A stretch of DNA of 64,000 nt from Geothrix sp. 21YS21S-2 (GTDB taxonomy: Bacteria > Acidobacteriota > Holophagae > Holophagales > Holophagaceae): the NCBI RefSeq assembly GCF_030846775.1, contig NZ_CP132910.1:2266001-2330000 (forward strand). Reading direction: 5' to 3'. Shown here piece after piece: positions 6,448 through 24,887 of this stretch. Made by a program: the position numbers and the translations under genes. Within the stretch, counting starts at the first letter, position 1. The number at the start of each line of letters is the position of its first letter. The notes beneath the pieces are model-generated. The model was not told the origin of the DNA and did not search any database. It worked only from the letters and a program-made list of their open reading frames with translations.

Positions 6448-7974
6448 GGGCAGCAGCACCCTCACCACCGTGCCCCGCCCCGGATCGCTCTGGATCTGCA
6501 CCGTGCCCTTGTGGTTGCGGATGATCCCCGCCACGGCGGGCAGCCCCAGGCCCCGCCCGATGAATTTCGTCGTGAAGAAGGGATCGAAGATCTTCCGCAG
6601 GACCTCCTGGGTCATGCCCATGCCGGTGTCCCTCACTTCCAGGAAGGCGTAGGCGCCCGCGCCGACGCCGAGGTTCGGCGCCAGGGAGGATTCCCAGCGG
6701 CGGTCCAGGATCTCGCCGCCGGTGCGGATGGCCACCTCCCGCGAGGAGGCCGGGTCCAGGGACTCGAAGGCGTTGACGGCCAGGGTTCGCACGACCTGGA
6801 GGAGCTGGTTGGGATCCGCCAGCACCTGGGGGGCCGCGGGGTCCAGGAGGAACTCCAGCCGGGTGCTCCTGGGCACCATGGCCATGAGGAATTCGCGGGA
6901 GCCCTCCACCAGCGCGTTGAGGTCCACCCTCCTCATGGCGGAGACCGTCTGGCCCAGGTAGGCCATGAGCTGGTTGGTGAGATCCGACCCCCTCATCGCG
7001 GCCTGCTCGATGCGGTCGAAGCTGGCCCGGGCGCGGCTTTCGGGGTGCACGTCCCGCACGCCCAGGTTGCAGTTGCCCAGGATCGCGGTGAGGAGGTTGC
7101 TGAAGTCGTGGGCCACGCCGCCCGCGAAGGCCTTGAGGCCCTCCATCTTGTGGGTCTCGCGCAGGGACTCCTCGGCGGCCTTGAGGGCCGTGATGTCGGC
7201 CTGGATCGCGATGAAGTGGCCCGGGGCGCCGCCCTGGCCCGGCACGGGCACGATGGTGGTGGCCACCCAGTAGGGCTCGCCGTCCTTGGCCCGGTTGCGG
7301 ATCTCGCCCTTCCAGACCTGGCCGGCCAGGATGGTGCGCCAGAGCTCCTGGAAGAAGACCGCGCCGTGGAAGCGGCTGTTGACCAGCTGGTAGGTCCTGC
7401 CGAGCAGCTCGGGCCGGGCGTAGCCGGACAGGTCGCAGAACTTGTCGTTCACGGCCAGGATCCGGCCCTTGGCGTCCGACAGCGACACGATGGCGTGCTC
7501 GTCCAGGGCCCGCTGGTAGCTCTCCATCCCGACCGCCCCCCAGGACTGGGCGTCCATCCTGGGCTTGCGCACCGCGTACTCCCGGGCCTCCCCCAGGATC
7601 GCGTCCCCGGTGGGGCCGTCGGCCAGCTTCCAGACCATGCGGATGGGGGTGCCGTCCCGCTTCTGGAAATGGCTTTCATGAATCCCAGATACCTTTCCCC
7701 GCATGTGCCCATCGAACATGGACAGGACGGTGCGCCGCTCCCTGGGCACCACCATGTCGGCGAAGTCCTTTCCCAGCAGTTCCTCGTTGCCGTAGCCCCA
7801 CAGGCGGGAGGAGGCCCCCTTGACCATGCGGAACCGCCGGTCGGCGCCAAGGCTGTACACCACCTCCCGATCCTTATCCAGGATCCAGTCCAGAAGGGCG
7901 CCCGGGTCAGCGGGCGACTTGGCTCTGCGGCCCAGGAAGAACATGTTCAAGTATACAATTCGGGGCCGGGCCAT
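6436..7974 (-). CDS. PAS-PAS sensor histidine kinase
   Basis: About 512 residues with no signal peptide or membrane segment, so probably cytosolic. Two PAS domains (about 30-130 and 155-270; the second has the NDKFCDLSGYARPELLG hallmark and a PAC tail) precede HisKA with His289 (GGVAHDFSNLL) and a HATPase domain (VNAFESLD, RDTGMGM, GRGLGLPAV). The end shares 12 bp with the converging hybrid kinase. The reading frame is open to a TTG at 7989; I prefer the ATG at 7974, and an ATG at 7944 is also possible, as none has a strong Shine-Dalgarno. The gene is divergent from the small secreted protein at 8056. The signal and the partner regulator are unknown. Confidence 0.8.
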   Translation of the reverse strand: MARPRIVYLNMFFLGRRAKSPADPGALLDWILDKDREVVYSLGADRRFRMVKGASSRLWGYGNEELLGKDFADMVVPRERRTVLSMFDGHMRGKVSGIHESHFQKRDGTPIRMVWKLADGPTGDAILGEAREYAVRKPRMDAQSWGAVGMESYQRALDEHAIVSLSDAKGRILAVNDKFCDLSGYARPELLGRTYQLVNSRFHGAVFFQELWRTILAGQVWKGEIRNRAKDGEPYWVATTIVPVPGQGGAPGHFIAIQADITALKAAEESLRETHKMEGLKAFAGGVAHDFSNLLTAILGNCNLGVRDVHPESRARASFDRIEQAAMRGSDLTNQLMAYLGQTVSAMRRVDLNALVEGSREFLMAMVPRSTRLEFLLDPAAPQVLADPNQLLQVVRTLAVNAFESLDPASSREVAIRTGGEILDRRWESSLAPNLGVGAGAYAFLEVRDTGMGMTQEVLRKIFDPFFTTKFIGRGLGLPAVAGIIRNHKGTVQIQSDPGRGTVVRVLLPLAN

Positions 7975-8055
7975 GCGGGTATATTCCAATTCTTTTTCTT
8001 ATCGCAAACGGGGAAAACGCGCTAAAATGCTGGAATTCCATCTCCAGGAGCTTCC

Positions 8056-8250
8056 GTGAAGACGTTCATCGCCGCCCTCGCCATCCTCTCCTTCGCCGCC
8101 GCCCGCGCCGAAGAGCCCAAGAAGCCGGCCAAGGCTGCCGCCTGTGCGAAAGAAGGCTGCAAGGACTCGAAAGCCTGTGAAAAGAAGGTTTCCGAGAAGA
8201 AGAAGGACTGCTGCAAGCAGGAATGCCCCAAGGACGCCAAGAAGGGCTGA
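8056..8250 (+). CDS. Small secreted Cys/Lys-rich protein
   Basis: 64 residues from a GTG start with a CCAGGAG Shine-Dalgarno 5 bp upstream. The first 18 residues (MKTFIAALAILSFAAARA) form a signal peptide ending in an AxA cleavage site. The mature 46 residues are nearly all Lys, Ala, Glu and Cys, with six cysteines in pairs and singles (CAKEGC, ACEKK, DCCKQEC). This is typical of small exported metal-binding or disulfide-rich peptides, but I do not recognise a named family and no function can be assigned. A TAAAAT -10-like hexamer lies at 8023-8028. It is a believable gene because of the signal peptide and the ribosome site, despite its length. Confidence 0.65.
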   Translation: MKTFIAALAILSFAAARAEEPKKPAKAAACAKEGCKDSKACEKKVSEKKKDCCKQECPKDAKKG

Positions 8251-8327
8251 ACGGACCGGAGGATCTCCGACGGTTTTGATCGACTTTCCCTTGGCTTGGC
8301 TGCCGGGTCTGGTACCATTCCAGGCCG

Positions 8328-8834
8328 ATGAACCAGAAGTTTTCTCCATTGGCCCATGACGAATTTGTCGCCCTCCTGGAGGGCGGGATGTCGGTGTGCG
8401 TGGCCTCCCGGGGAAGGGGGGGGATCCCGGCGGTGAGCCGGGCCCTGGGCTGCCGGGTCTCCCGGGACCGCCGCCGCCTGTCGGTGTTCCTCTCCCGGTC
8501 CCAGGCCGCGGACATCCTGGAGGACGTGCGCGCCAACGGCACCATCGCCGTGGTGGCCTCCCATCCCGTCACCCACCGCTCCTACCAGTTCAAGGGCACG
8601 GACGCCGCCGTGGCGCCCCTGGGCAGGGGTGAACCGGCCCGCATCCGTGCCTACGTGGAGACCTTCCTCCGGGTTGTGGAACCCGAAGGCTACCCGCCCC
8701 ACCTCATCCGCGCCCTCTTCGCCAGCCCCCGGGAGACCCCCGAGGACTGGGTGGCGGTGACCTTCACGCCCACCTCCGCCTTCAGCCAGACACCGGGCCC
8801 GTCCGCGGGCGATCCCCTGGGGGACGCCCCATGA
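8328..8834 (+). CDS. Pyridoxamine-5'-phosphate-oxidase-like FMN split-barrel protein
   Basis: 168 residues. The sequence (FVALLEGGMSVCVASRGRGGIPAVSRALG, then RLSVFLSRSQAADILEDVRANGTIAVVASHPVTHRSYQFKG) follows the FMN-binding split-barrel fold of the PNPOx-like family, where the protein dimer binds flavin, haem or F420. The C-terminal part about 105-145 is helical and ends in a Pro/Gly-rich tail. Its stop overlaps the start of the next gene (ATGA), and that protein begins with a second split-barrel domain, so the two are made together and may form a heteromer. The substrate is unknown. Confidence 0.75.
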   Translation: MNQKFSPLAHDEFVALLEGGMSVCVASRGRGGIPAVSRALGCRVSRDRRRLSVFLSRSQAADILEDVRANGTIAVVASHPVTHRSYQFKGTDAAVAPLGRGEPARIRAYVETFLRVVEPEGYPPHLIRALFASPRETPEDWVAVTFTPTSAFSQTPGPSAGDPLGDAP

Positions 8835-10180
8835 CCATCCGGCTCGAGACCATCCGCGACTGCCTGGAGGGCGCCGTGCCGGGCTACGTCGCGACCTGCG
8901 ATCCCGACGGGACCCCCAACATCACGGCCCTTTCCCAGGTGCAGTACGTGGACGAGCGCCACCTGGCGCTCTCCTACCAGTTCTTCAACAAGACCCGCCG
9001 GAACATCCTGGCCAACCCCACGGCCCGGCTCCAGGTGACCAGCCCCCTCACCGCGGCCCAGTACCGCATGACGCTGCGCTACCTGCGCACCGAGACCCAG
9101 GGACCGCTGTTCGAGACCATGAAGGCCAAGCTCGCGGGCATCGCCTCCCACGAAGGCATGACCGGGGTGTTCCGCCTCCTGGGCTCGGACGTCTTCGAGG
9201 TCCTGGAGATCGAGCTCGTGCCCGGGCAGCCCCTGCCGCCGCCGGCGCAGCCCAGCCGCATGACGGCCCTGCGCTCCTCCGCGGCCCGCCTCGCCGCGGC
9301 CCAGGACCTGGAGAGCCTCCTGGGCGGCATCCTGGACTGCATGGAGAAGGATTTCGACATCGGCCACACCATGGTGCTGATGGCCGACACCGCGGGCCGC
9401 AAGCTGTACACGCTGGCGACCCGCGGCTACGACCGCTCCGGGATCGGCTCGGAGATCCCCATGGGCGAGGGGGTCATCGGCGTCTGCGCCCGCATGGCCA
9501 CTCCCATCCGCATCGGACACGCCACCTCCGAGTACGGCTACGGCCGCGCCCTGCGCCGGAGCGCGGAGGAGGAGGGCATGGGGGACCGCCTGGACACCCG
9601 GATCCCCCTGCCCGGCCTGGCGGAACCCGCGAGCCAGCTTGCCATACCCATCCAGGCCCGGGGCCGGCTCCTGGGGGTCCTGTACGTGGAGAGCCCGCAG
9701 GATTCGCGGTTCACCTACGACGACGAGGACGCCCTCATGGTCGTGGCCGCCCAGTTCGGCATGGTCGTCCAGGACCTGGAGACGGGCCAGGAGCCCCCGG
9801 AGGACCCCGCCTCCGAGCCTCCGGAGCCCCCGCCCGGGTGCGTGGGGGGAGGCCCCCTGGTGGTGCGGCACTACGCCGAGGACGACAGCATCTTCCTGGA
9901 CGGCGACTACCTCATCAAGGGCGTGGCCGGCAGCATCTTCTGGACGCTGGTCAGGGACCACGTCACGCTCCAGCGCACCACCTTCAACAACCGGGAGCTG
10001 CGCCTGGACCCCAGGATCAAGCTGCCCGGCCTCAGCGACAACCTGGAGGCGCGGCTGGTGCTGCTGGGGCGGCGCCTGGTGGAGCGGGAGGCCTGCGTCC
10101 GCATGGAGAAGACGGGCCGGGGCCGGTTCCGCCTCTGCGTCGAGCGGGCCCTGCACCTCGAGGACGTCCCGCAATCCTAA
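8831..10180 (+). CDS. FMN split-barrel / GAF / winged-helix-like fusion protein
   Basis: 449 residues with three parts. Residues 1-135 are a PNPOx-like split barrel (GYVATCDPDGTPNITALSQVQYVDERHLALSYQFFNKTRRN). Residues about 150-315 are a GAF domain (LESLLGGILDCMEKDFDIGHTMVLMAD, then GEGVIGVCARMATPIRIG). Residues about 335-445 form a tail (DGDYLIKGVAGSIFWTLVRDH, NNRELRLDPRIKLPGLSDNLEARL) that reads like a winged helix found after GAF or forkhead-type domains. The layout suggests a flavin- or haem-linked sensor that might act on transcription, but no DNA target is known. Translation is coupled to the upstream gene by a 4-bp overlap, and a likely terminator follows at 10233. Confidence 0.75.
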   Translation: MTIRLETIRDCLEGAVPGYVATCDPDGTPNITALSQVQYVDERHLALSYQFFNKTRRNILANPTARLQVTSPLTAAQYRMTLRYLRTETQGPLFETMKAKLAGIASHEGMTGVFRLLGSDVFEVLEIELVPGQPLPPPAQPSRMTALRSSAARLAAAQDLESLLGGILDCMEKDFDIGHTMVLMADTAGRKLYTLATRGYDRSGIGSEIPMGEGVIGVCARMATPIRIGHATSEYGYGRALRRSAEEEGMGDRLDTRIPLPGLAEPASQLAIPIQARGRLLGVLYVESPQDSRFTYDDEDALMVVAAQFGMVVQDLETGQEPPEDPASEPPEPPPGCVGGGPLVVRHYAEDDSIFLDGDYLIKGVAGSIFWTLVRDHVTLQRTTFNNRELRLDPRIKLPGLSDNLEARLVLLGRRLVEREACVRMEKTGRGRFRLCVERALHLEDVPQS

Positions 10181-13883: not shown

Positions 13884-14059
13884 TCATGGAACTTGCCGAG
13901 CAGGAGGCGGATCTCCTGAAACTCCTTCTGGTGAAGGAGCTGGAAGAGACCCGGGTGGAAGTGCATCACGCCAGGAACATGGATTTCAAGCTTGGCCTGG
14001 AGGCCCGGGAGGCCAACCTGAAGAGCCTGCTCAACCGGTTCCAGCGCCCTAACCTCTGA
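13880..14059 (+). CDS. Small hypothetical helical protein coupled to cytochrome gene
   Basis: 59 residues (MIMELAEQEADLLKLLLVKE...). The start ATG overlaps the stop of the dihaem cytochrome (ATGA) and follows a GAGGAGGG ribosome site, so translation is coupled. The protein is charged and predicted all-helical (EADLLKLLLVKELEETRVEVHHARNMDFKLGLEAREANLKSLLNRF), possibly a coiled coil, without signal peptide or cysteine. I do not recognise a family. The stop codon ends 1 bp before the inverted repeat of the insertion sequence, so the natural C-terminus may have been cut or replaced by the insertion. Confidence 0.55.
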   Translation: MIMELAEQEADLLKLLLVKELEETRVEVHHARNMDFKLGLEAREANLKSLLNRFQRPNL

Positions 14060-14060
14060 T

Positions 14061-14076
14061 ATGTATTGGCCTGTCA
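14061..14076. repeat. IS terminal or subterminal inverted repeat (transposase 3' side)
   Basis: ATGTATTGGCCTGTCA. Its reverse complement matches 15784-15799 at 15 of 16 positions. Confidence 0.7.
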
Positions 14077-14106
14077 AGGCTGGCAGCCAACTATTTCTCT
14101 TTTCCG

Positions 14107-14300
14107 GCAGTGTGTAGGGAGCAGAACGGACGGCATGCCGACGGTTGATCAGTCTGATATGCGCGGGTTGGGTACCGCATGACAACGGGTTCGTCGAGGA
14201 GCTGCCTCGATCTAGTGGCGAGGGTCATTCCAGAAGCGAATGCCTCTTAGAGGGTTCGAGGATTCTCCCACCGTTGTCCGTTCTGCTGCCGACACACTGC
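14107..14300 (-). repeat. 25-bp imperfect inverted repeat enclosing 144 bp in the IS non-coding end
   Basis: Arms at 14107-14131 and 14276-14300 pair at 23 of 25 positions (they begin GCAGTGTGT and end AGCAGAACGGAC). The repeat lies just after the transposase stop, in the place where IS1111-type elements encode their guide RNA. It could be the closing stem of a structured RNA, or the ends of a small nested element. I cannot tell which from one copy. Confidence 0.6.
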
Positions 14301-14317
14301 GGCTGCACTTCAGCCAG

Positions 14318-15442
14318 CTAAGGCTTGGGGGTAGGCGGTGGCAGGGCCTGGCCAATGGCCCAGAGGAAGCCGGTCAGCTCGCGGGCGATGGCCGTGCAGG
14401 TCTGGACCTTCTTCTTGCCCCTGGCCTCGAACTGCCGGTAGCGTGCGCAAAGGCGCTTCTGTGCAGCCCAGGCGATGGTCTGCACTGCTTCTGGAGCACG
14501 TTCGGCCCGTCTTTGCAGGCTCGGGGTTTTCCTCGCGGGATGCCGGTAGGTCCATGCTGCCTCCACCAGGACCCTGCGCACATGGCCATTGCCGGTCTTG
14601 GTGATCCCCCCGCGGGACCGGGTCTCGCCACTGGAATGCTCGCTGGGAACCACCCCCAGATACTTCATCAACTGGGGTGCATTGGCGAATCGCCTCAAAT
14701 CGCCGATCTCAGCCACGATCGTGGTCGCAGTGAGGCGGTTGATCCCGCGCAGGGCCATGTAGCCTTCGATCAGCCTGGAGAAGGCCGAACTCGATCCGGC
14801 GGTTTCGATCTGCTCGTCGAAGGCCGCAACCCGTCTGGTCATGGCCTGGACCGTATCGACATATTCCTGAAAGACGATTTGTTGGACCGGCTGGTCGAAC
14901 TTCATGGTTTCCAGCCAGCGGAGATGGGCCTGGGTCCACCGGGTTTTTCCGGAATAGGTCCGCCCGTGCCGCAGCAGGAAGGCCAACAGTCGCTGCTTGG
15001 CGACGTGCTGCAAATGCTTCAGGTCCTCCCGAGCCCGGGTCAGATCCCGCAGGGCCTCCTGGGCTTCGTCGGGCACCCATATTGCCGTTAGTTCCCCGGC
15101 CCGGTGGAGCCTGGCCAAGGTCAGACTATCGCGGCGGTCGGTTTTGACCCGGTCCCCAGGTTTCCTGGGAATGAGGGACGGCGCCACAACCTGGCACTCC
15201 AGCCGTAAAGCGAGTAGTTGCCGATAAAGGATGTAACCGCAGGGGCCCGCTTCGTAGCAGAACGAAAGCGTCGCGCCATCCTTCCGGAGTTGCCTCACAA
15301 GTTTCACCACGGCCTCCGGTGTATTGGCGATCTCACCCACGTACCGAACTTCCCCTTCGTGGGCTTCAGCCACCGAGACCGCAATCGTCTCCTTGTGGAC
15401 ATCCAGCCCGACGTACTTGCTCACCTTGCTAGAATCGTTCAC
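14318..15442 (-). CDS. IS110-family transposase (DEDD recombinase)
   Basis: 374 residues from a GTG start with a GAGGAGG ribosome site. The N-terminal DEDD (RuvC-like) domain shows YVGLDVHKET (Asp14), CYEAGPCGY and VKTDRRDSLTLARL, and the C-terminal transposase_20 domain shows IEGYMALRGINRLTATTIVAEIGD and YLGVVPSEHSSGE, including the conserved catalytic Ser region. Length is normal for the family, with no frameshift, so it may be active. It acts with a non-coding RNA from the element to move a circular intermediate without target duplication. The sense of the gene is opposite to the neighbouring cytochrome operon. Confidence 0.93.
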   Translation of the reverse strand: MNDSSKVSKYVGLDVHKETIAVSVAEAHEGEVRYVGEIANTPEAVVKLVRQLRKDGATLSFCYEAGPCGYILYRQLLALRLECQVVAPSLIPRKPGDRVKTDRRDSLTLARLHRAGELTAIWVPDEAQEALRDLTRAREDLKHLQHVAKQRLLAFLLRHGRTYSGKTRWTQAHLRWLETMKFDQPVQQIVFQEYVDTVQAMTRRVAAFDEQIETAGSSSAFSRLIEGYMALRGINRLTATTIVAEIGDLRRFANAPQLMKYLGVVPSEHSSGETRSRGGITKTGNGHVRRVLVEAAWTYRHPARKTPSLQRRAERAPEAVQTIAWAAQKRLCARYRQFEARGKKKVQTCTAIARELTGFLWAIGQALPPPTPKP

Positions 15443-15783
15443 GGCCTGTCCTCCTCAATTACGGCTCTGAGCCGGTTGTGTAATGCGCACTGAGCTTAAC
15501 CCGCGTCATTTAAGGACGGACAGGCCCCTTTGAGGAGCCTGGGGCCTTGCCTCGGTGGGCCTTGCGCACCACCCTTTAGACAGCCGGGCGGAGGTTAGGG
15601 CTACCGCAGGGATGCGACCCGAGCGCCGACCCGGGCCCGGAAACAGGGTGGGCCGGAGTCATCCGGCCCCGTCCTTGGCAACCGCCTTTCCAACCGGCCC
15701 AGTTTCTGGGCTTCAGGCGATAAATCCCGGGGGTCTGGGGGCAGAGCCCCCGGGGATCTCGTTCTAACGGCCCGCCTGATTCG
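15443..15783. other. Non-coding 5' part of the IS element with hairpins
   Basis: No convincing gene. A perfect 9-bp inverted repeat (GGCCTGTCC at 15443-15451 and GGACAGGCC at 15518-15526) brackets the start of the region; the left arm touches the transposase start codon. A strong GC hairpin (GGGGGC-AGA-GCCCCC within 15727-15759) lies near the outer end. No T-run follows, so it does not look like a terminator. It may belong to the element's guide RNA or regulatory end. Confidence 0.5.
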
Positions 15784-15799
15784 TGTCAGGCCAATACAT
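15784..15799. repeat. IS terminal or subterminal inverted repeat (transposase 5' side)
   Basis: TGTCAGGCCAATACAT, the partner of 14061-14076. It lies 45 bp downstream of the metzincin stop codon. Confidence 0.7.
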
Positions 15800-15844
15800 G
15801 ATGTCTAGATGGTGTTTTAGAAATAGAAGGCCCCGCGATGATGG

Positions 15845-18619
15845 CTAGTCCACCTGCCTCATGCGGGTGGTGTGGCCCTTCACGCCGTCGCTGAACACGA
15901 GGTCCAGCGAGGCCGCCGAAGTCTGGAAGGTCCGCTGGCCGCCTTCGAGGATGGCCACCACCTCCCCTGTGGCCGTGTCCCTGACCATGACGGCGGGGTG
16001 CGCGGCGGCGTCCCAGTCCAGGGCCACCTCGCCTGCCGAGACCCGGCGCAGGGAGGGTTGCCCCGCAACGACCCGGGGCGAGGTGCGGCTTGCGAGGATC
16101 TGCCCGTCCTTGAGGACCCTGAGGCTGGCCAGGGCATCCAGGTCGGCGGAGGCCGCGGGCAGGGCCACGAGGAAGTGCCGGTCGTGGGGACCCGGGTCGC
16201 AACCCATCTCCTCGGCTTCCATGGGGGAGGTAAGGACCACATTTCCGCCGGCGTCCAGGCCTTCCAGGCGCAGGTCCCCTTCCGGCTGGACCGGGGACGG
16301 GACGGCGCGGGTGCGGAATCCGGGGAGCAGTTCGACGGAGCCGTCCTTGTGCACGATGCCCCGGGCGATGAGGCACTCCCGGGCCGTATCCGCGGCCGTG
16401 GCCACGTAGGCGCCGGTGGCCGCGCGGGTGGTGATGACCTTCTTGTAGTTGTAGTCGCTCACCCAGACCGGACTGCAGTAGCTCATGACGTCCACCACCG
16501 AGGTGGGCGATTCGAGGATGTTCCGGGTGCTGTCGTAGCCCCAGACGCCGATGACGCCGCTGGCGTACGGATAGCCGGTGTCGTACGAGGAGACCCCGCA
16601 CGGCGCGTGGGACAGGCCGAAATTGTGCCCGACCTCGTGGGCGAAGACCTCCGGGTAGAGCCCGCCGTCGGCATAGTTGGCGCTCTTGTCCCAGCCGATG
16701 GCCGTGCGCGCGGAGTAGGGAGAGTTGAGGGTCGGGACGTACCCCATCCCGGCCGTGCCGCTGGCGTAGGGCGTCGTCACGGCCCCGTAGTAGTACCGGC
16801 CGGTGGCGCCGTCCGCGGCGTGCTTGGCGGAGAGGTCGCTCAGGAGCTTGCTCCAGGTGGTGTCGTCAGTGGCGCTGAGGGTGGAGACCGAACCGGTGAA
16901 GGGAGCCCCCACGAGGATGTCCAGGTCGGCGATGGGCCACATCCTGGCCAGCCGCGCCACCCACGACGCCTTGGTGGCCTCGGTCACGTTGGCCGTGCCG
17001 CTGGACAGCACCACGGGGAAGATCGTGGTGCGGAAGGTGGGAACCGTGGTCACCGCGAGGGCGACCGTGGTCGTGTTGTTGGTGCGGTCCCCCTCGGCGA
17101 CCAGGCCTCCGGGGTCGATCACCGCCTCGATCGCATAGCCGGTGCCCACCGGGGACGCCAGGTCCGTTCCGGGGATGGCCAGGTTCCAGCTGGAGGCGAG
17201 GGTGCCTTCGGCCACCGTCAGCGGGGTGCCGGCGCCCGGTGCGGCGACGGTCTTGGGATAGCCGGAGACGGCGGTTCCGTTGTTGGTGAGGGTGACCTGA
17301 ACCACGGGCGCGGCGGTGTTGGCCTGGTTGGCCAGCACGTAGACCCGGGCGAGTCCGTTCTTGCCGGCGATGATGGGCACGGAATTGTCGGGGGTCTGGG
17401 TGCTCTGGGTGAATTCGATCTTCGCCACCGCCAGATCCAGGGTGGAGCCGGGGGGGAAGACCACGATGGACAGGGCCGCCGTGGCGGAGCCGCCGCCATT
17501 GGAGGCGGTGACGGTGTAAGTCGCCATGGCGGTCGCCGCCGTGGGCGTGCCGCTGATGACGCCGGTGGCGGTGTTCAGGGCCAGCCCTGGGGGCAGGGAC
17601 GGGCTGACCGCGTAGGAGGCCACGGCGCCGCCGCCCGAAGTGGATGGGACGTTCGCCGCGATGGCGGTGCCGACCGCGTAGTAGGCCCTGGTCACCGTGT
17701 AGGTCAGGCCCGAGGGAGCCACCTCCACGACGGAGAGGGTGAGGGTGGCCTGGGCGCTGCCCGCGGGGTTGGAGCCCGTGACGACATAGCTGGCCGGAGC
17801 CGTCAGCGTCGTGGGCATCCCGGAGATGACGCCGGTGGCGGGGTCCATGGCCAGGCCCGCGGGAAGGGCCGGGCTGACGACGTAGCCCGTCGGCGCGCCG
17901 CCGCTGAAGGAGGGGCTGTTGGCCGTGATCGCGATGCCGCGGGGGTAGGCCGCCGTCGTCCGGGTGTAGGTGAGGTTGGCCGGGGCCACTTCCACCACGG
18001 ACAGGGTGAGCGTGGTGGTCACGCTGCCGGTGGCGTTGGAGGCCGTCACGACGTAGGCGGCGGCGGCCGTGACGGCGGTGGGGGTTCCGGTGATGACGCC
18101 GGAGGCGGAGCTGAGCGACAGGCCCGCGGGAAGGGCCGGCTCGATCAAATAGCCGGTGGGCGTGCCGCCGGTGTGGGAGGGCGTGTTGGCGGCAATGGCG
18201 GCGCCCCGGGCGTAGACGGCGGTGGGGATGCCGTAGGACACCCCCGTGGGGGCGGCGTCGTTCACCGTGATGGTGAGCCCCGCGGTGGTGCCGCCTGCGG
18301 AGTTGGTGGCCGTCACGGTGTAGGTGGCCCTGGCTGTGATGGCGGTGGGGGTTCCGCTGACGGCGCCGGTCGAGGAGCTCAGGCTCAGACCCGCCGGCAG
18401 GGTGGGGGTGACGGAATACCGGGCCGGGGTTCCGCCCGTGGAGGAGGGCAGATCGGGGGTGATGGCCTCGCCGATGGTGAAGACCGCCGGGTTGGCGGCG
18501 TAGGTGAGATTGGCGGGTCCCTGGGGCGCCGGCGTGGAGGAGCCTCCCCCCCCGCATCCGAGGTTGACAAGGAGACTGCCGGCCAGGAAAAGGCCGATCC
18601 ATCGGAAAGGTCGCATCAT
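15845..18619 (-). CDS. Secreted metzincin lipoprotein with four Ig-like repeats
   Basis: 924 residues. A lipoprotein signal ends at Cys22 (LLVNLGC) followed by a Gly/Ser/Pro linker. Four tandem He_PIG (putative Ig) repeats of about 89 residues, each with a PALPAGLSL..TGVISGTPTA core, occupy about 36-392. A CARDB-like beta domain follows (FTQSTQTPDNSVPIIAGKNG to DRTNNTTTVAL). The catalytic domain carries HEVGHNFGLSH (His661, Glu662, His665, His671) and the Met-turn VMSYC, so it is a zinc metzincin. A beta-rich C-terminal region of about 180 residues ends the protein. It should sit on the outside of the cell and cut protein or glycoprotein. It is paralogous to the next gene upstream, including the MRPFRW start. 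Stop is intact despite the nearby IS. Confidence 0.82.
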   Translation of the reverse strand: MMRPFRWIGLFLAGSLLVNLGCGGGGSSTPAPQGPANLTYAANPAVFTIGEAITPDLPSSTGGTPARYSVTPTLPAGLSLSSSTGAVSGTPTAITARATYTVTATNSAGGTTAGLTITVNDAAPTGVSYGIPTAVYARGAAIAANTPSHTGGTPTGYLIEPALPAGLSLSSASGVITGTPTAVTAAAAYVVTASNATGSVTTTLTLSVVEVAPANLTYTRTTAAYPRGIAITANSPSFSGGAPTGYVVSPALPAGLAMDPATGVISGMPTTLTAPASYVVTGSNPAGSAQATLTLSVVEVAPSGLTYTVTRAYYAVGTAIAANVPSTSGGGAVASYAVSPSLPPGLALNTATGVISGTPTAATAMATYTVTASNGGGSATAALSIVVFPPGSTLDLAVAKIEFTQSTQTPDNSVPIIAGKNGLARVYVLANQANTAAPVVQVTLTNNGTAVSGYPKTVAAPGAGTPLTVAEGTLASSWNLAIPGTDLASPVGTGYAIEAVIDPGGLVAEGDRTNNTTTVALAVTTVPTFRTTIFPVVLSSGTANVTEATKASWVARLARMWPIADLDILVGAPFTGSVSTLSATDDTTWSKLLSDLSAKHAADGATGRYYYGAVTTPYASGTAGMGYVPTLNSPYSARTAIGWDKSANYADGGLYPEVFAHEVGHNFGLSHAPCGVSSYDTGYPYASGVIGVWGYDSTRNILESPTSVVDVMSYCSPVWVSDYNYKKVITTRAATGAYVATAADTARECLIARGIVHKDGSVELLPGFRTRAVPSPVQPEGDLRLEGLDAGGNVVLTSPMEAEEMGCDPGPHDRHFLVALPAASADLDALASLRVLKDGQILASRTSPRVVAGQPSLRRVSAGEVALDWDAAAHPAVMVRDTATGEVVAILEGGQRTFQTSAASLDLVFSDGVKGHTTRMRQVD
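17446..18514 (-). repeat. Four tandem 267-bp He_PIG-coding repeats
   Basis: Each unit codes for about 89 residues with the pattern PALPAGL..(T/S)G.I(S/T)GTPTA....Y.VTA(S/T)N. The units are diverged from each other, so they are old rather than recently copied. Confidence 0.8.
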
Positions 18620-18716
18620 GCCCCCGCGGCAAACGTCGCCAACCCAATTATAAGATAATGAGTCTCATGGGGTTCGTTGAATATTTTATAACTGCTTCTC
18701 CGTTCGTTTCCGGGCT

Positions 18717-21700
18717 TCAATCCACCTGTTTCAGGTGGGTGGTGTGGCCCTTGATTCCATCGCTGAACACCAGGTCCAGGGCGGCGGCCTGGGTCCGGAT
18801 CGTCCGCTCCCCGCCGGCGAGGACGGCGATGACCTCCCCGGTGGAGGCATCCCGCACCAGGAGCCCCGGATGGACACGGGCATCCCAGGTGATCGTCACG
18901 TCCTCGCCGGAGGCGCGGCGGACCGCGGGACCGGCGCTTGGGGCCCCGGCCGAGGTGCGGCTGGCCAGGATCCGGCCTTCCTTCAGGATCCTCAGGTCCG
19001 CCAGGGCGTCCAGGTCGCTGGAGGCCAGGGGAAGGGCCGCGAGGAAATGCCGGTCGCGGGGGGCCCCTCCGCAGCCCGCCTCCACCGCCTCCAGGGGCGC
19101 GGTGAAGAGGAGCCGGCCCGTGGCGTCCAGGCCCTCCACCCGCAGGTCGGATTCCACCGGGGGGATCGTCGGCGCCGCCCCGGTGCGGAACCCGGGGAGC
19201 AGCTCGACCGTGCCGTCCTCGTGAAGGAGGCCGCGCACGAGCAGGCACTCCCGGGGGTCCTCGGGGGAGGCCACCAGGAACCCGCCGGTGACGTTGCGGT
19301 TGGCGAGAACCTTCTTGTAGTTGTAGTCGCTGACCCAGTTGGGGCTGCAGTAGCCCATGATGTCGTTCCAGGACGTGGGGGCGTAGAGGGTGTTGGAGAC
19401 GCTGTCGTACGCCCAGGTGCCGATGATGCCGTTGGCGTAGGGATAGCCGGCGTCGGGGTTGGCGACTCCGCCGCAGGGGGCGTGATAAAGGCCGAAGGTG
19501 TGGCCGATCTCGTGGGCGAAGACCTCCGGGTACTTGCCGCCGTCGGCGTAGCCGCTGGCCTTGTCCCAGCCGATGGCCGTGCGGTAGCGGTAGTTGGCGC
19601 CCGGGCCGGCGATGTAGCCCAGGCCGGCCACGCCGCTGCCGTAGGGGATGCTCAGGGCCCCGTAGTAGTAGCGGTTGGTGGCCGCATCCGCCTGGTGCTT
19701 GAGCGCGAGATCGCTGAGGAGGGCGCTCCAGCCCGTTCCGTCGGAGCCCAGGGTCGCCACCGAGCCGGTGAAGGTGGCCCCCACGAGGACGTCCACGTCG
19801 GCCACGGGCCACATCTTGGCCAGCCGGGCCACCCAGGCGGCCTTGTTGGCCTCCGTGATGTTGCCCGTTCCGCTGGAGAGAACCACGGGGAAGATCGTGG
19901 TGCGGAAGGTGGGCACGGTGGCGCCGGTGAGCGCCACCGTGGTCGTGTTGTTCGTGCGGTCCGCCTCGGCGACCAGGGCCTGGGGGTCCACCACGGCCGT
20001 GAGGGCGTAGCCGGTCCCCGCGGGGGCGGCCAGGTCCGAGCCGGGGATGGCCAGGTTCCAGCTGGAGGCCAGGGTTCCTTCGGCGACCGCCAGGGGCACG
20101 CTGGCGCCGGGGGCCGGGATGGTCCTGGGGTAGCCCGCGACCGGGATCCCGTCGTTGGTGAGGGTGAGCTGCACCGCCGGCGCCACGGTGTTGGCCTGGT
20201 TGGCCACCACGAAGACCCGGGCGACCCCGCTCTTGCCGGCGAGGATGGGCACGCTGTTGTCGAGGGTCTGGGGGCTCTGCATGAGCTCGATGGCGTCCAC
20301 GGTCAGGTCCAGGGTCGGGCCGGGAGGATAGACCACGATGGACAGGGAGGCCGTGGCCGCGCCGCCCGGATTGGAGGCGGTCACGGTGTAGTTGGCCTTC
20401 GCCGTGGAGGTGGTGGGCGTCCCGCTGATGACGCCCGTGGTGGCGCTGATGGCGAGCCCCTGGGGAAGGGCCGGGGACACCGCGTAGGCGGTCGCGGGAT
20501 CGCCGCCGCTGGTGGACGGGGTGTTGGGAGTGGCCGGGACGCCCACGGAATAGTAGGCCTTCGCCAGGGTGTAGGTCAGGCCGGTGGGGGCCGCCTCGAC
20601 CACCCGGAGGGTGAGGGTGGCCTGGGTGCTCCCGGCGGTGTTGGAGGCCGTGATCACGTAGGGGGCCGAGGCGGCCGCGGCGGTGGGGGTACCGGTGATC
20701 ACGCCGGTGGAGGTGCTGAGGACCAGGCCCGCAGGGAGGGCCGGACTTACCGCGTAGGCGTCGGGGACCCCGCCCGCGTTGGAAGGCGCGTTGGCCGTGA
20801 TGGCGGTGCCGTGTTGGTACACGGCGGGGTTGAGGCTGTAGACCAGGGCCGTCGGGGCCGGTTCCACCACGGTGAGGGTGAGGGTGGCCTGCGCACTGCC
20901 GCCGGTGTTGGAGGCCGTCACGAGGTAGGGGGCCGAGGCGGCCGTGGCGGTGGGCGTCCCGGTGATCACGCCGGTGGAGGTATTAAGGGCCAGGCCCGCC
21001 GGCAGGGAGGGGCTGACCACGTACGAGGCCACCACCCCGCCCCCGTGGGAGGGCGTGTTGGCGGTGATGGCGGTTCCGCGGATGTAGACGGCCGGGTTGA
21101 GGCTGAAGGCCAGGGCCGTGGGCGCCGGTTCCACCACCGTGAGGGTGAGGGTGGCCTGCGTGCCGCCCAGGGCGTTGGAGGCCGTCACGGTGTAGGTGGC
21201 GGCGGCGGTCTGGGCCGTGGGCGTCCCCGCTATGACGCCGGTGGCGGTGTCAAGCGCGAGCCCGGCGGGAAGGGCCGGGGCGACGGCGTAGGCGGTCGGC
21301 CCGCCCCCGCCGTGCGTTGGCACGTTGGACGGAATGGCCACGCCCCGGGTGTACACCGCCGGATTGGCGCTGTAGGCCAGTCCCGTCGGGGCCTGATCCA
21401 CCACCGACAGGGTGAGGGTGGCCTGGGCGCTGCCCGCGGTGTTGGTGGCCGTGACGACATAGGGGACCGCAGCGGCGAGGGCCGTGGGGGTCCCGGTGAT
21501 CGCGCCGGTGGCGGTGCTGAAGGCCAGGCCCGCGGGCAGGGCCGGGCTGATCGCGTAGGCGCTGGGGACGCCGCCCGCATTGGAGGGCGTGTTGGCCGGG
21601 ATGGCGGTGCCCCGGGCGTAGACCGCCGGATTGAGGCTGTAGGCGAGGGACGTGGGGGTCACGTCCACCACCGAGAGGATGAGGGTCGCCAGGGTTGACC

Positions 21701-22829
21701 CGCTGGTGTTGGTGGCGGTGACGGCGTAGGCGTCCGGGGCGGCGAGGGCCGTGGGGGTCCCGGTTATCACGCCGGTCGAGGTATTGAGCGCGAGCCCGGC
21801 GGGGAGGGCCGGACTGACCGCGTACGAGACGACCACGCCCCCGCCGTGGGAGGGGGTGTTGGCGGCGATGGCCGCACCCCGGGTGTAGACCGCGGGGTTG
21901 AGGCCGTAGGCCAGGGTCGTGGGGGCCGGTTCCACCACCGACAGGATGAGGGTGGCCTGGGCGCTGCCGCCGGTGTTGGTGGCCGTGACCACGTACGGGG
22001 CCGCGGCTGCGAGGACGGTGGGGGTTCCGGTGATCGCCCCGGTGCCGGCGTCCAGGGACAGCCCCGCGGGAAGCGCCGGGGCCACCAGGTAGGAGGCCAC
22101 CGGGCCGCCTGCGCTGGAAGGAAGGTCGGCGGCGATGGCGGCGCCCCGGAAGAACACCGCCGGGTTGGCGCTGTAGGCCAGGCCCGTCGGCGCCTGCTCC
22201 AGCACCGAGAGGACGAGGATGGCCTGGGCGAAGCCGCCGGTGTTGGTGGCCGTGACCGTATAGGAGGCCGGGGAGGCCGTGGCGAGGGGCGTCCCGGTGA
22301 TCGCGCCCGTGGCCGCGTCGAGGGCGAGACCCGCGGGAAGGGCCGGACTGACGGCGTAGGAGACCACCGCGCCCCCTGCGCTGGAGGCCAGGTTGGCCGC
22401 GATGGGCAGGCCCCGCTGGTAGACGGCCGTGGCCATGGTGTAGGCGAGGTTCGAGGGCGCGGCGTCGTTCACCGTGATGGCCACGGCCGCCGCGGCGCTG
22501 CCCGCCGAATTGGAAGCGGTGACGGTGTAGGTGGCCCGCGCGGTGATGGCCCCCGGGGTTCCGCTGATGACACCGGAGGCGGCGCCCAGACTGAGCCCGG
22601 CGGGGAGGGCCGGGGTGACGCTGTAGGCGGTTGGCGCCCCCCCCGTGTGGGAGGGGACGTCGTTGGCGATGGCCTGCCCCAGCGTGAAGGTGGCCGGATT
22701 GGCGGAGTACGCCAGGCCCGAGGGGGCCTGGACGGCCGGGGTGGGCGAACCCCCCCCGCCGCCGCTGCAGCCCGAAAGGACGAGGAGACAGACAGTCAAA
22801 ACCAGGCCAAACCAACGGAATGGTCGCAT
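18717..22829 (-). CDS. Secreted metzincin lipoprotein with nine Ig-like repeats
   Basis: 1370 residues. Lipoprotein signal with Cys21 (LLVLSGC). Nine He_PIG repeats cover about 37-838, then the same CARDB-like domain (LMQSPQTLDNSVPILAGKSG), the metzincin catalytic domain with HEIGHTFGLYH (His1106, Glu1107, His1110, His1116) and Met-turn IMGYC, and the same C-terminal beta region ending KGHTTHLKQVD. It exceeds its downstream paralogue by almost exactly five repeats (446 residues). The long stalk would carry the protease further from the outer membrane. The 97-bp gap between the genes has a TATAAT-like sequence on the minus strand (18647-18652), so the second gene may have its own promoter. Substrate unknown. 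Confidence 0.82.
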   Translation of the reverse strand: MRPFRWFGLVLTVCLLVLSGCSGGGGGSPTPAVQAPSGLAYSANPATFTLGQAIANDVPSHTGGAPTAYSVTPALPAGLSLGAASGVISGTPGAITARATYTVTASNSAGSAAAAVAITVNDAAPSNLAYTMATAVYQRGLPIAANLASSAGGAVVSYAVSPALPAGLALDAATGAITGTPLATASPASYTVTATNTGGFAQAILVLSVLEQAPTGLAYSANPAVFFRGAAIAADLPSSAGGPVASYLVAPALPAGLSLDAGTGAITGTPTVLAAAAPYVVTATNTGGSAQATLILSVVEPAPTTLAYGLNPAVYTRGAAIAANTPSHGGGVVVSYAVSPALPAGLALNTSTGVITGTPTALAAPDAYAVTATNTSGSTLATLILSVVDVTPTSLAYSLNPAVYARGTAIPANTPSNAGGVPSAYAISPALPAGLAFSTATGAITGTPTALAAAVPYVVTATNTAGSAQATLTLSVVDQAPTGLAYSANPAVYTRGVAIPSNVPTHGGGGPTAYAVAPALPAGLALDTATGVIAGTPTAQTAAATYTVTASNALGGTQATLTLTVVEPAPTALAFSLNPAVYIRGTAITANTPSHGGGVVASYVVSPSLPAGLALNTSTGVITGTPTATAASAPYLVTASNTGGSAQATLTLTVVEPAPTALVYSLNPAVYQHGTAITANAPSNAGGVPDAYAVSPALPAGLVLSTSTGVITGTPTAAAASAPYVITASNTAGSTQATLTLRVVEAAPTGLTYTLAKAYYSVGVPATPNTPSTSGGDPATAYAVSPALPQGLAISATTGVISGTPTTSTAKANYTVTASNPGGAATASLSIVVYPPGPTLDLTVDAIELMQSPQTLDNSVPILAGKSGVARVFVVANQANTVAPAVQLTLTNDGIPVAGYPRTIPAPGASVPLAVAEGTLASSWNLAIPGSDLAAPAGTGYALTAVVDPQALVAEADRTNNTTTVALTGATVPTFRTTIFPVVLSSGTGNITEANKAAWVARLAKMWPVADVDVLVGATFTGSVATLGSDGTGWSALLSDLALKHQADAATNRYYYGALSIPYGSGVAGLGYIAGPGANYRYRTAIGWDKASGYADGGKYPEVFAHEIGHTFGLYHAPCGGVANPDAGYPYANGIIGTWAYDSVSNTLYAPTSWNDIMGYCSPNWVSDYNYKKVLANRNVTGGFLVASPEDPRECLLVRGLLHEDGTVELLPGFRTGAAPTIPPVESDLRVEGLDATGRLLFTAPLEAVEAGCGGAPRDRHFLAALPLASSDLDALADLRILKEGRILASRTSAGAPSAGPAVRRASGEDVTITWDARVHPGLLVRDASTGEVIAVLAGGERTIRTQAAALDLVFSDGIKGHTTHLKQVD
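20320..22721 (-). repeat. Nine tandem 267-bp He_PIG-coding repeats
   Basis: Same unit as in the adjacent paralogue. The inner units (such as those starting TSLAYSLNPAVYARG and TALVYSLNPAVYQHG) are more like each other than the first and last, which fits expansion from the middle of the array. Confidence 0.8.
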
Positions 22830-22923: not shown

Positions 22924-24807
22924 TCAGGGCTTGAGGTGCTTGCCCAGGAACGTCTCCATGGCGCCGTAGAACGCGAAGCGGTTCTCCTCGTTATGGAAGC
23001 CGTGGCCTTCGTTGTCCTTGACCAGGTACTCCACCTCCACTCCGCGCTTCTTGAGGGCGGCCACCATCTGGTCGCTCTCGTCCTTGTTCACGCGGGGATC
23101 CTTGGCGCCCTGGGCGACGAGGAGCGGGGTCTTGATGCGGTCCGCCAGGAAGGCCGGGCTCGTGGCCTCCATGCGGGCCTTGTCCGTCTCAGGGTTGCCC
23201 ACCATCTCGTACATCATTTCCAGGAAGGGCTTCCAGTAGGGCGGGATGGTCTTCATGAAGGTGAAGAGGTTGGAGACGCCCACGTAGTCGACGGCCGCCG
23301 CGTAGAGGTCGGGCGTGAGGGTGACGCCGGCGAGGGTGGCGTAGCCGCCGTAGCTGCCGCCGTAGATGGCGACCCGCTTGGGATCGGCGATCCCCTGCTT
23401 CACGAGCCAGGCCACGCCGTCGGTGATGTCGTCCTGCATGGTGCCGCCCCACTGCTTGAAGCTGGCTTCCCAGAACTTCCTGCCGTAGCCCGTGGAGCCC
23501 CGGAAGTTCATCTGGAACACGGCATAGCCGCGGCTGGCCAGGAACTGCACCTCGGGGTTGAAGCCCCAGACGTCCCGGTGCCAGGGGCCCCCGTGGGGGT
23601 TGATCACCACGGGCAGGCCCTTGGCCTCCCTGCCGTTGGGCAGGGTGAGGTAGCCGTTGATGGTGAGGCCGTCCCGGGAGGTGTAGGTGACCGGCTTCAT
23701 GGGCGCCATGTCGGCCTCCTTGAGCCAGGGCGAGACCTGGGCCAGGAGGGTGAGGCTGCCGGTGGCCTTGTCGTAGAGGTACCGGGCGCCCCGGGAGCGG
23801 TCATTGTAGGCGGCGACGATGAAGTGCTTCTCGGCCTTGTCGCTGGCCGTGAAGGCCACCTCGTAGCCCGGCAGCTTCGCGGAAACCTTCTCGAACATGG
23901 CCTTGGACTCGCCGTCCAGGAAGTGGCGCTCCGGCTTCCAGGTCGTGTAGGAAGCGGCGACGAGGACTTTGCGGAGCCTGGAGTGGGCCAGCCCCGACAC
24001 GTCCACCTGCGGGTGCTCGAAGATCAGCTTCCCTTCCTTGGCGGTGGCGAGGTCGAACTCGAAGATGGCCGACTTGTCCCGGCCCCGGTTGGAGGCCACG
24101 TACAGTCCCTTGTTGTCGAAGGTGAACAGCAGGGGCGAGACGGATTCCTTGAAGTTGGTGGTCAGGATCACCTTGAAGGGATCCTTCTCCGTCTCGCGGT
24201 ACAGGAGGCTGTTGTTGACCCCGTCCGTGGTCAGGGCCACCCGCAGGCGCCCGGCGTGGTCGGTCATCCAGCCCGTGATGTTGCCGGGGTTCTGGGCGAC
24301 CTGCTCCTCCTTGCCGGTCTTCACGTCCACGCGGAACACGTCGAAGACGCGCGGGTCGCGGCGGTTGTGGGAGAGCAGCAGGAACCCGGGGTCGTCCTCC
24401 AGGTCGTCCACGATCTCCGCGCGCAGCTTCTCGCCCGGGGTGAGGTCCTTGAGGTCCTTTCCCTCCAGGTCCACGCTGACCACGTGGAAGTTCTCGTCCC
24501 CGCCGAAGTCCTTGACGTAGAGGATGCGGTCGCCCTTCCAGAAGTAGCCGGAGATGTCCCGGGCCGTCTCGGACGTGACGCGCTTTTCGGGGCCGCCGGC
24601 CAGGGGACGCACGAAGACGTTCTGGCGGTTCTCGTAGGGGGCCACCCAGCTGAGGTACTTCCCGTCCGGCGAAACGGCGAACGCCGTCTTCTCCGGGTTG
24701 CGGAAAAAGTCCTTGAGGGCCGGGGGGGCCTTGGGGGGCACCGCCGTGGCGAGCATGCCCACGGCCAGCAGACCCGTGATGAGACAACCTGAAAGCGTAC
24801 GACTCAT
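22924..24807 (-). CDS. S9-family (prolyl oligopeptidase-type) serine peptidase
   Basis: 627 residues from the ATG at 24807, which has a GGAGGAA ribosome site and gives a signal peptide (MSRTLSGCLITGLLAVGMLATA). An upstream in-frame start would add a poor non-signal leader. An N-terminal beta-propeller (about 35-370, with FAVSPDGKYLSWVAPYE) precedes an alpha/beta-hydrolase domain with Ser485 in GGSYGG, Asp in GAKDPRVNKDES and His in GHGFHNEENR. Members cut short peptides after Pro or Ala, in the periplasm. It is probably unrelated in regulation to the metzincins, though all three are exported peptidases in the same direction. The 94-bp gap behind it contains two short hairpins with no T-tract. 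Confidence 0.87.
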   Translation of the reverse strand: MSRTLSGCLITGLLAVGMLATAVPPKAPPALKDFFRNPEKTAFAVSPDGKYLSWVAPYENRQNVFVRPLAGGPEKRVTSETARDISGYFWKGDRILYVKDFGGDENFHVVSVDLEGKDLKDLTPGEKLRAEIVDDLEDDPGFLLLSHNRRDPRVFDVFRVDVKTGKEEQVAQNPGNITGWMTDHAGRLRVALTTDGVNNSLLYRETEKDPFKVILTTNFKESVSPLLFTFDNKGLYVASNRGRDKSAIFEFDLATAKEGKLIFEHPQVDVSGLAHSRLRKVLVAASYTTWKPERHFLDGESKAMFEKVSAKLPGYEVAFTASDKAEKHFIVAAYNDRSRGARYLYDKATGSLTLLAQVSPWLKEADMAPMKPVTYTSRDGLTINGYLTLPNGREAKGLPVVINPHGGPWHRDVWGFNPEVQFLASRGYAVFQMNFRGSTGYGRKFWEASFKQWGGTMQDDITDGVAWLVKQGIADPKRVAIYGGSYGGYATLAGVTLTPDLYAAAVDYVGVSNLFTFMKTIPPYWKPFLEMMYEMVGNPETDKARMEATSPAFLADRIKTPLLVAQGAKDPRVNKDESDQMVAALKKRGVEVEYLVKDNEGHGFHNEENRFAFYGAMETFLGKHLKP

Positions 24808-24887
24808 AATTCCTCCATTGATGGTGGCCCAATGTGGCGGAATTTTATGCCCGGGTATCGGGTTGCCCGGCATTAAAAAATAACAAA

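Follow-up and report, generated by a model that had tools for sequence, protein, structure and literature searches.

Tandem metzincin-like genes of a Geothrix genome carry Ig-like arrays of four and nine units

Two adjacent genes in a 64,000-nucleotide stretch of the Geothrix sp. 21YS21S-2 genome (hereafter the window, in which all unlabelled positions are counted) encode paralogous proteins, P1 and P2, which share a 534-residue C-terminal module with a metzincin-type zinc motif and differ by five Ig-like units in the array that precedes it. The reading favoured here, with a probability of roughly one in two, is that both are exported metzincin proteases, probably lipid-anchored at an N-terminal Cys, in which an Ig-like rod would follow the anchor and carry the catalytic module at its far, C-terminal end, the array acting as a spacer that would fix how far the active site stands from the membrane. 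On this reading, an old gene duplication was most likely followed by growth of the P2 array from about four units to nine through amplification of its interior, with the first and last units and the enzyme retained, which would give the cell a short and a long version. The features are as follows.

15845..18619, minus strand: P1, predicted metzincin of 924 amino acids with four He_PIG units (open reading frame list and Pfam)
17450..18517, minus strand: P1 array, four 89-residue Ig-like units, residues 35-390 (Pfam and unit HMM)
15848..17449, minus strand: P1 C-terminal module, with a CARDB-like region (about residues 395-521), a predicted metzincin domain (about 523-742) and a beta-rich C-terminus (alignment, models and fold matches)
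16607..16639, minus strand: P1 zinc motif HEVGHNFGLSH, residues 661-671
18717..22829, minus strand: P2, paralogue of 1370 amino acids with nine He_PIG units (open reading frame list and Pfam)
20322..22724, minus strand: P2 array, nine 89-residue Ig-like units, residues 36-836 (Pfam and unit HMM)
18720..20321, minus strand: P2 C-terminal module, with 66% identity to the P1 module (alignment)
19482..19514, minus strand: P2 zinc motif HEIGHTFGLYH, residues 1106-1116
22924..24873, minus strand: neighbouring gene for an S9 prolyl-oligopeptidase-type peptidase, missing together with P2 from the related genome G002

Reading along the minus strand, the S9 peptidase gene is followed by P2 and, after a gap of 97 bp, by P1, and each of the two proteins has a hydrophobic N-terminal segment, then a Cys and a run rich in Gly, then the He_PIG array and the 534-residue C-terminal part. 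The original prediction of two tandem genes described this arrangement correctly, as both open reading frames end exactly where it had placed them; the CARDB-like, catalytic and C-terminal regions that it held to be common are the module found in both, and the possibility it had raised that the genes might be unrelated outside the repeats is contradicted by 65.6% identity over 540 residues. On the other side of P1, the ~1.8 kb at 14046-15844 that separate it from a cytochrome-like gene carry an IS110 transposase gene (14318-15442) and are absent at the corresponding place in G002 and G005, two genomes of the same genus with single P1-type genes (L022 and L023, respectively). The promoter scan gave no hit at either P1 or P2; by eye, a TATAAT-like hexamer and a common GC-rich stretch were seen before the P1 start (18600-18660, minus strand) and in L023 (11590-11640, minus strand).

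Pfam analysis revealed four He_PIG stretches in P1 (E 8e-34) and nine in P2 (E 1.1e-85), all above the 24-bit cut-off, and the DNA of both genes showed 13 register copies at a spacing of 267 nt, with one 270-nt step per gene. When the limits were set by an HMM derived from these 13 units, the P1 array measured 356 residues and the P2 array 801, a difference of 445 residues or 5 x 89. The repeat counts first proposed, four and nine, were thus borne out by Pfam and the unit HMM, and so was the equation of the 446-residue difference between the proteins with five units, the remaining residue lying in the linker before the array and 534 residues following the array in both. Adjacent units were 51-61% identical in P1 and 48-76% in P2 (49-61% and 46-76%, respectively, over all unit pairs), and the longest exact DNA repeats, 21 bp (P1) and 26 bp (P2), mean that these are old arrays in which recombination is at present not easy. 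A rapid, phase-variable repeat number in P1 and P2 was ruled out by these short exact repeats together with the positional conservation of P1-type units described below. Genome-wide, 25 He_PIG matches exceeded the cut-off; P1 and P2 account for 13, and the remaining 12 are spread over five open reading frames elsewhere, which are possible sources of units.

For the catalytic module, an AlphaFold2 model built from 42 aligned rows reached a pLDDT of 91.3 and a pTM of 0.91, and its residues 138-357 matched adamalysin II (1iag) with a Z score of 15.7 and an rmsd of 3.4 over 174 aligned residues, so that structure prediction, suggested earlier as a check, confidently returned a metzincin fold. The whole-P1 model (33 rows) gave a pLDDT of 87.0 and a pTM of 0.63, the latter leaving the relative domain positions along the rod uncertain, and a fold search with full-length P1 yielded mainly eukaryotic Ig and cadherin chains, uninformative for the enzyme. 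The three zinc-binding His, the catalytic Glu and the Met of the Met-turn were invariant in 33 aligned rows including P1 and P2, and of 127 deduplicated family sequences 46 had another residue in place of the Gly usual in metzincins at position 8 of HExxHxxGxxH (Ser in 32, Arg in 6, Asn in 5, Asp in 2 and Tyr in 1). The region before the catalytic domain scored 20.2 and 22.6 bits against Pfam CARDB in P1 and P2, just below the 22.7 cut-off, which was exceeded in the relatives L022 (26.3 bits) and L024 (25.7 bits); moreover, a solved CARDB domain (3idu) matched the module model (Foldseek probability 1.00, E 4.8e-4). Taken by motif and predicted fold, P1 and P2 are probably metzincin proteases, and presumably proteolytic.

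With respect to family, both proteins scored above the cut-off of Pfam Peptidase M66 (PF10462; P1 36.1 and P2 27.2 bits, against 20.6), the family of StcE and TagA, but the match was confined to the zinc region, about 50-65 of the 306 profile positions. Some Pfam reprolysin models also reached their cut-offs. The P1 module had no NCBIfam match at E up to 0.01, and of the 42 module members 8 matched NCBIfam Mep72, at E 0.0009 at best. Among the matches listed in the module fold search there were no M66 or CpaA entries, an absence that excludes nothing.

Regarding the anchor, P2 has a lipobox (LSGC, Cys21) that fits the PROSITE PS51257 pattern, whereas the corresponding P1 sequence (NLGC, Cys22) has an Asn at -3, which lies outside that pattern. 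The designation of the pair as lipoproteins is therefore consistent with the P2 sequence and doubtful for P1. The PS51257 pattern was matched by 48 of 77 family open reading frames, and a Cys followed by a Gly-rich run occurred in 54 of the 58 Holophagaceae open reading frames, the other four being cut at the 5' end; both proteins are probably lipidated. It would be very improbable, in our estimate, that P1 is released and P2 alone is a true lipoprotein, the pair dividing free from tethered work instead of acting at two heights: the lipoboxes are off consensus in all three P1-type sequences (P1, L022 and L023) and P2's fits, but all three P1-type proteins retain the Cys and the Gly run after it, which is what their use would predict. 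Ig-like units are about 4 nm long, from which extended arrays of ~16 nm (P1) and ~36 nm (P2) can be estimated, and the latter would be hard to fit extended into the periplasm, which favours a position on the cell surface. The seven GspD-type secretin matches in the genome included none above the curated cut-off, and accordingly no export route to the surface was identified.

Phylogenetic analysis of 30 modules placed P2 outside a group of P1, L022 and L023 (group support 100/99), and a 34-row tree agreed, indicating that the genes were duplicated before these species diverged. Both trees and the 66% identity rule out a recent origin of P2 by copying of P1. In the one-contig genome G002, the P1-type gene lies directly beside a hemerythrin/PAS gene with neither a P2 counterpart, which was found nowhere in that genome, nor the S9 gene between them, most simply explained by one loss of both. 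In G005, the contig extends ~150 bp beyond the P1-type gene on its upstream side, where the sequence is unlike the end of P2, and the S9 gene stands at the end of another contig. A functional link of P1 and P2 to the S9 peptidase appears weak, because in a further genome, G008, which encodes the S9 peptidase (79% identity), the module search gave no more than a marginal match (E 4.7e-4). The dS between P1 and P2 in the CARDB and catalytic part (0.44) was hardly above that between species (0.37-0.40), compared with 0.66 versus 0.42-0.48 in the C-terminal rest, and the low value in the former part may reflect some gene conversion.

The history of the arrays was traced unit by unit. Among P1, L022 and L023, identity by position was 71-79% for unit 1, 66-72% for unit 2, 67-76% for unit 3 and 66-73% for unit 4, so that the P1 units have been kept one by one in two related species, where array length is stable. 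The first unit of P2 was 67-70% identical to P1-type first units and its last unit 59-66% to P1-type last units, and P2 units 3-8 were 64-76% identical among themselves and 53-64% to P1-type interior units. It is therefore most likely, as far as the identities indicate, that four units existed before the species split and that amplification followed inside the P2 array; shrinkage of a long ancestor in the P1 line is less likely. Support in the unit tree was low, with 3 of 20 branches starred. The comparison of repeat counts, proposed for other strains, was made between species with one genome each, and there the P1-type count was constant at four in all three genes while P2 was absent from G002. 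A simple counting method gave a dN/dS of 0.35-0.48 for the P1-type stalk and 0.36-0.42 for the enzyme, indicating purifying selection on the stalk like that on the enzyme.

To describe the stalks of relatives, units were coded as H (He_PIG), T (TIG) and D (a stretch of 130-200 residues that recurs between TIG units and was identified with a purpose-built HMM). The 58 Holophagaceae open reading frames examined, three of them genome twins of others, included the architectures HHHH, H9, HHT, H8T, TT, TTT, DTT, TDTT, TTDTT and T5 as well as giants with 10, 11 and 20 TIG units, and nine of the 58 had no H, T or D. A second He_PIG array, with eight units and a TIG, was seen in another Geothrix (L123), which a quick tree joined with L036 and the careful tree did not. 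The clade of the 34 closest modules, from which the genome twins L133, L145 and L148 had been dropped before tree building, held 33 complete stalks (L134, cut at its 5' end, was left out) in 11 states: TTDTT in 16, DTT in 5, HHHH in 3, TTT in 2 and seven states seen once. The fewest state changes on the tree numbered 13, and the fewest changes of type, H or T, numbered 2, the figure of 13 being approximate as 16 of 31 inner branches were starred.

Pfam scans of the stalk regions of 26 relatives revealed TIG and, in more distant ones, I-set, fn3 (7), InlB-like Flg_new_2 (11), PKD and leucine-rich repeats (LRR), the last in some cases together with Big_2; no stalk domain at E up to 0.01 was seen in L039, the shorter L043 gene and L047. 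The module followed an LRR stalk in L053, L059, L062, L072 and L073, from Gemmatimonadota and other bacteria, with Big_2 present in L053, L059 and both L073 genes. In 77 open reading frames that had both a zinc motif and a stop upstream, Cys and module were separated by anything from almost nothing to ~1400 residues, starts being unassigned in this set and some rows being fragments or having the wrong Cys.

Because of its place between the N-terminal Cys and the module, an array with more units makes a longer spacer, and a constant module on a stalk of changing fold and length is what a spacer predicts. The stalk thus seems best seen as an exchangeable spacer, a reading favoured by these domain arrangements. 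One observation against it is that constraint on the P1 stalk is as strong as that on the enzyme; this is not required of a mere spacer and would suit units serving as substrate-recognition domains, more units giving more or different binding. The M72 glycoprotease CpaA offers a model for such recognition, since its report describes four tandem Ig-like domains that help form the substrate cleft and precede a C-terminal metzincin domain (PMC7542363), and the LRR stalks of some relatives look like binding domains and may add binding. Recognition by the Ig-like units is nevertheless doubtful, as close relatives carry the same module on He_PIG or TIG units and others on LRR, fn3 or, in L047, nearly nothing, and the replacement of the stalk by unrelated repeat folds argues against one specific ligand. 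The likeness of P1 and P2 to CpaA in having tandem Ig-like domains and then a C-terminal metzincin domain was drawn by description, and by the same description CpaA differs from them in lacking an anchor and in having a membrane-bound chaperone, CpaB, and cleft-lining Ig-like domains (PMC7542363).

A search with the C-terminal part of P1 found a match in 17 of 60 relatives' genomes, a whole-module profile matched 51 of 77 family genomes at E up to 0.001 (some marginally), and a scan of named genomes gave at least 68 loci, including Geothrix, Gemmatimonadota, Thermus, Chloroflexi and Myxococcales. A relative on a Thermus plasmid is annotated as M66; a further module relative, annotated as a putative peptidase M66, was observed in the Thermus phage phiLo (MH673673.1 95471-96151), with 33% identity over 45% of the module.

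Of five tandem pairs compared, P1 and P2 included, three differ much in length and two (L021 and L073) do not. The L021 pair (L021:3576-6620 and 6610-9651; G000:C1, ~749.6-755.7 kb) is a second pair in the genome of the window, with five TIG units in each gene and HExxHxxRxxH instead of HExxHxxGxxH, and L073 has two LRR-stalked open reading frames of similar length. Neighbouring genes of Geothrix G064 carry 11 and 20 TIG units, and a Gemmatimonadaceae locus (L043) has two open reading frames of 867 and 2004 amino acids. Two module-bearing open reading frames also occur in L017, L063, L066, L084, L099 and L102. Short and long paired forms are hence recurrent, but follow no rule. The giants of G064 (L150:199-6210, L150:7160-14866 and L151:974-7999) measure ~2000-2570 amino acids; some TIG units of the two L150 genes are 96-97% identical, and their exact DNA repeats extend up to 86-87 bp, suggesting that array growth there is recent.

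These comparisons also bear on neutral drift, under which recombination would lengthen and shorten the arrays, any count beyond some minimum would serve equally well and the five extra units of P2 would be without function. Stalk number and type change often in relatives, G002 lacks P2 altogether and two of the five tandem pairs compared have stalks of equal length, all of which drift would accommodate; set against it are the four units kept in order in three species, the purifying selection on the stalk and the single architecture TTDTT kept in 16 of 33 close relatives, which argues against constant change. Drift is on balance unlikely, though the best placed of the alternatives considered. 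As for the earlier proposal that repeat number sets the reach of a surface protease, the part that stands is the anatomy, namely, in P1 and P2, an array set between the Cys and the module and, in relatives, stalks that change by whole units or domains; control of reach by array number is plausible and has comparative support, and having two lengths may be of benefit.

Among known systems, a close parallel is with the Periscope Proteins SasG, Rib and Sgo_0707, in which folded domains arranged in tandem are reported to hold a functional domain away from the cell, their number differing between homologues and varying between strains (PMC8201768, PMC9704523). P1 and P2 share this layout in mirror image, with a differing unit number: Periscope Proteins are described there as having an N-terminal ligand-binding head and a C-terminal wall anchor, whereas P1 and P2 have a C-terminal enzyme head and an N-terminal Cys as the putative anchor. 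The highly identical tandem repeats by which Periscope Proteins are recognized were not found in P1 and P2, whose adjacent units show the lower identities given above, compared with the near-identity (82-100%) given in those reports for adjacent SHIRT units; the G064 arrays come nearer in this respect. In fibrillar adhesins, heads are likewise reported to combine freely with many stalk domain families (PMC8286594), and such free pairing of head and stalk is common to both, although the head is adhesive there and a protease-like module here. No paper pairing He_PIG with a metzincin was found in the literature search, nor anything on Geothrix metalloprotease lipoproteins or on acidobacterial metallopeptidases with a Putative Ig domain.

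The results point to a secreted metzincin family without a fitting curated name in the NCBIfam scan. A far-reaching version, in which this would be a widespread unnamed family of anchored metzincins whose stalk length is selected while the enzyme stays constant, whose paralogues cut at two fixed heights above the membrane and whose stalk can be rebuilt from any rod-forming domain, is offered as speculation that is probably too strong. Length variation of surface stalks is known for adhesins, and the same logic seems to apply here with an enzyme as the head. Putatively anchored at the N-terminus and offering one conserved module on naturally occurring stalks of many types and lengths, the family would form a ready comparative set for asking whether reach is selected.
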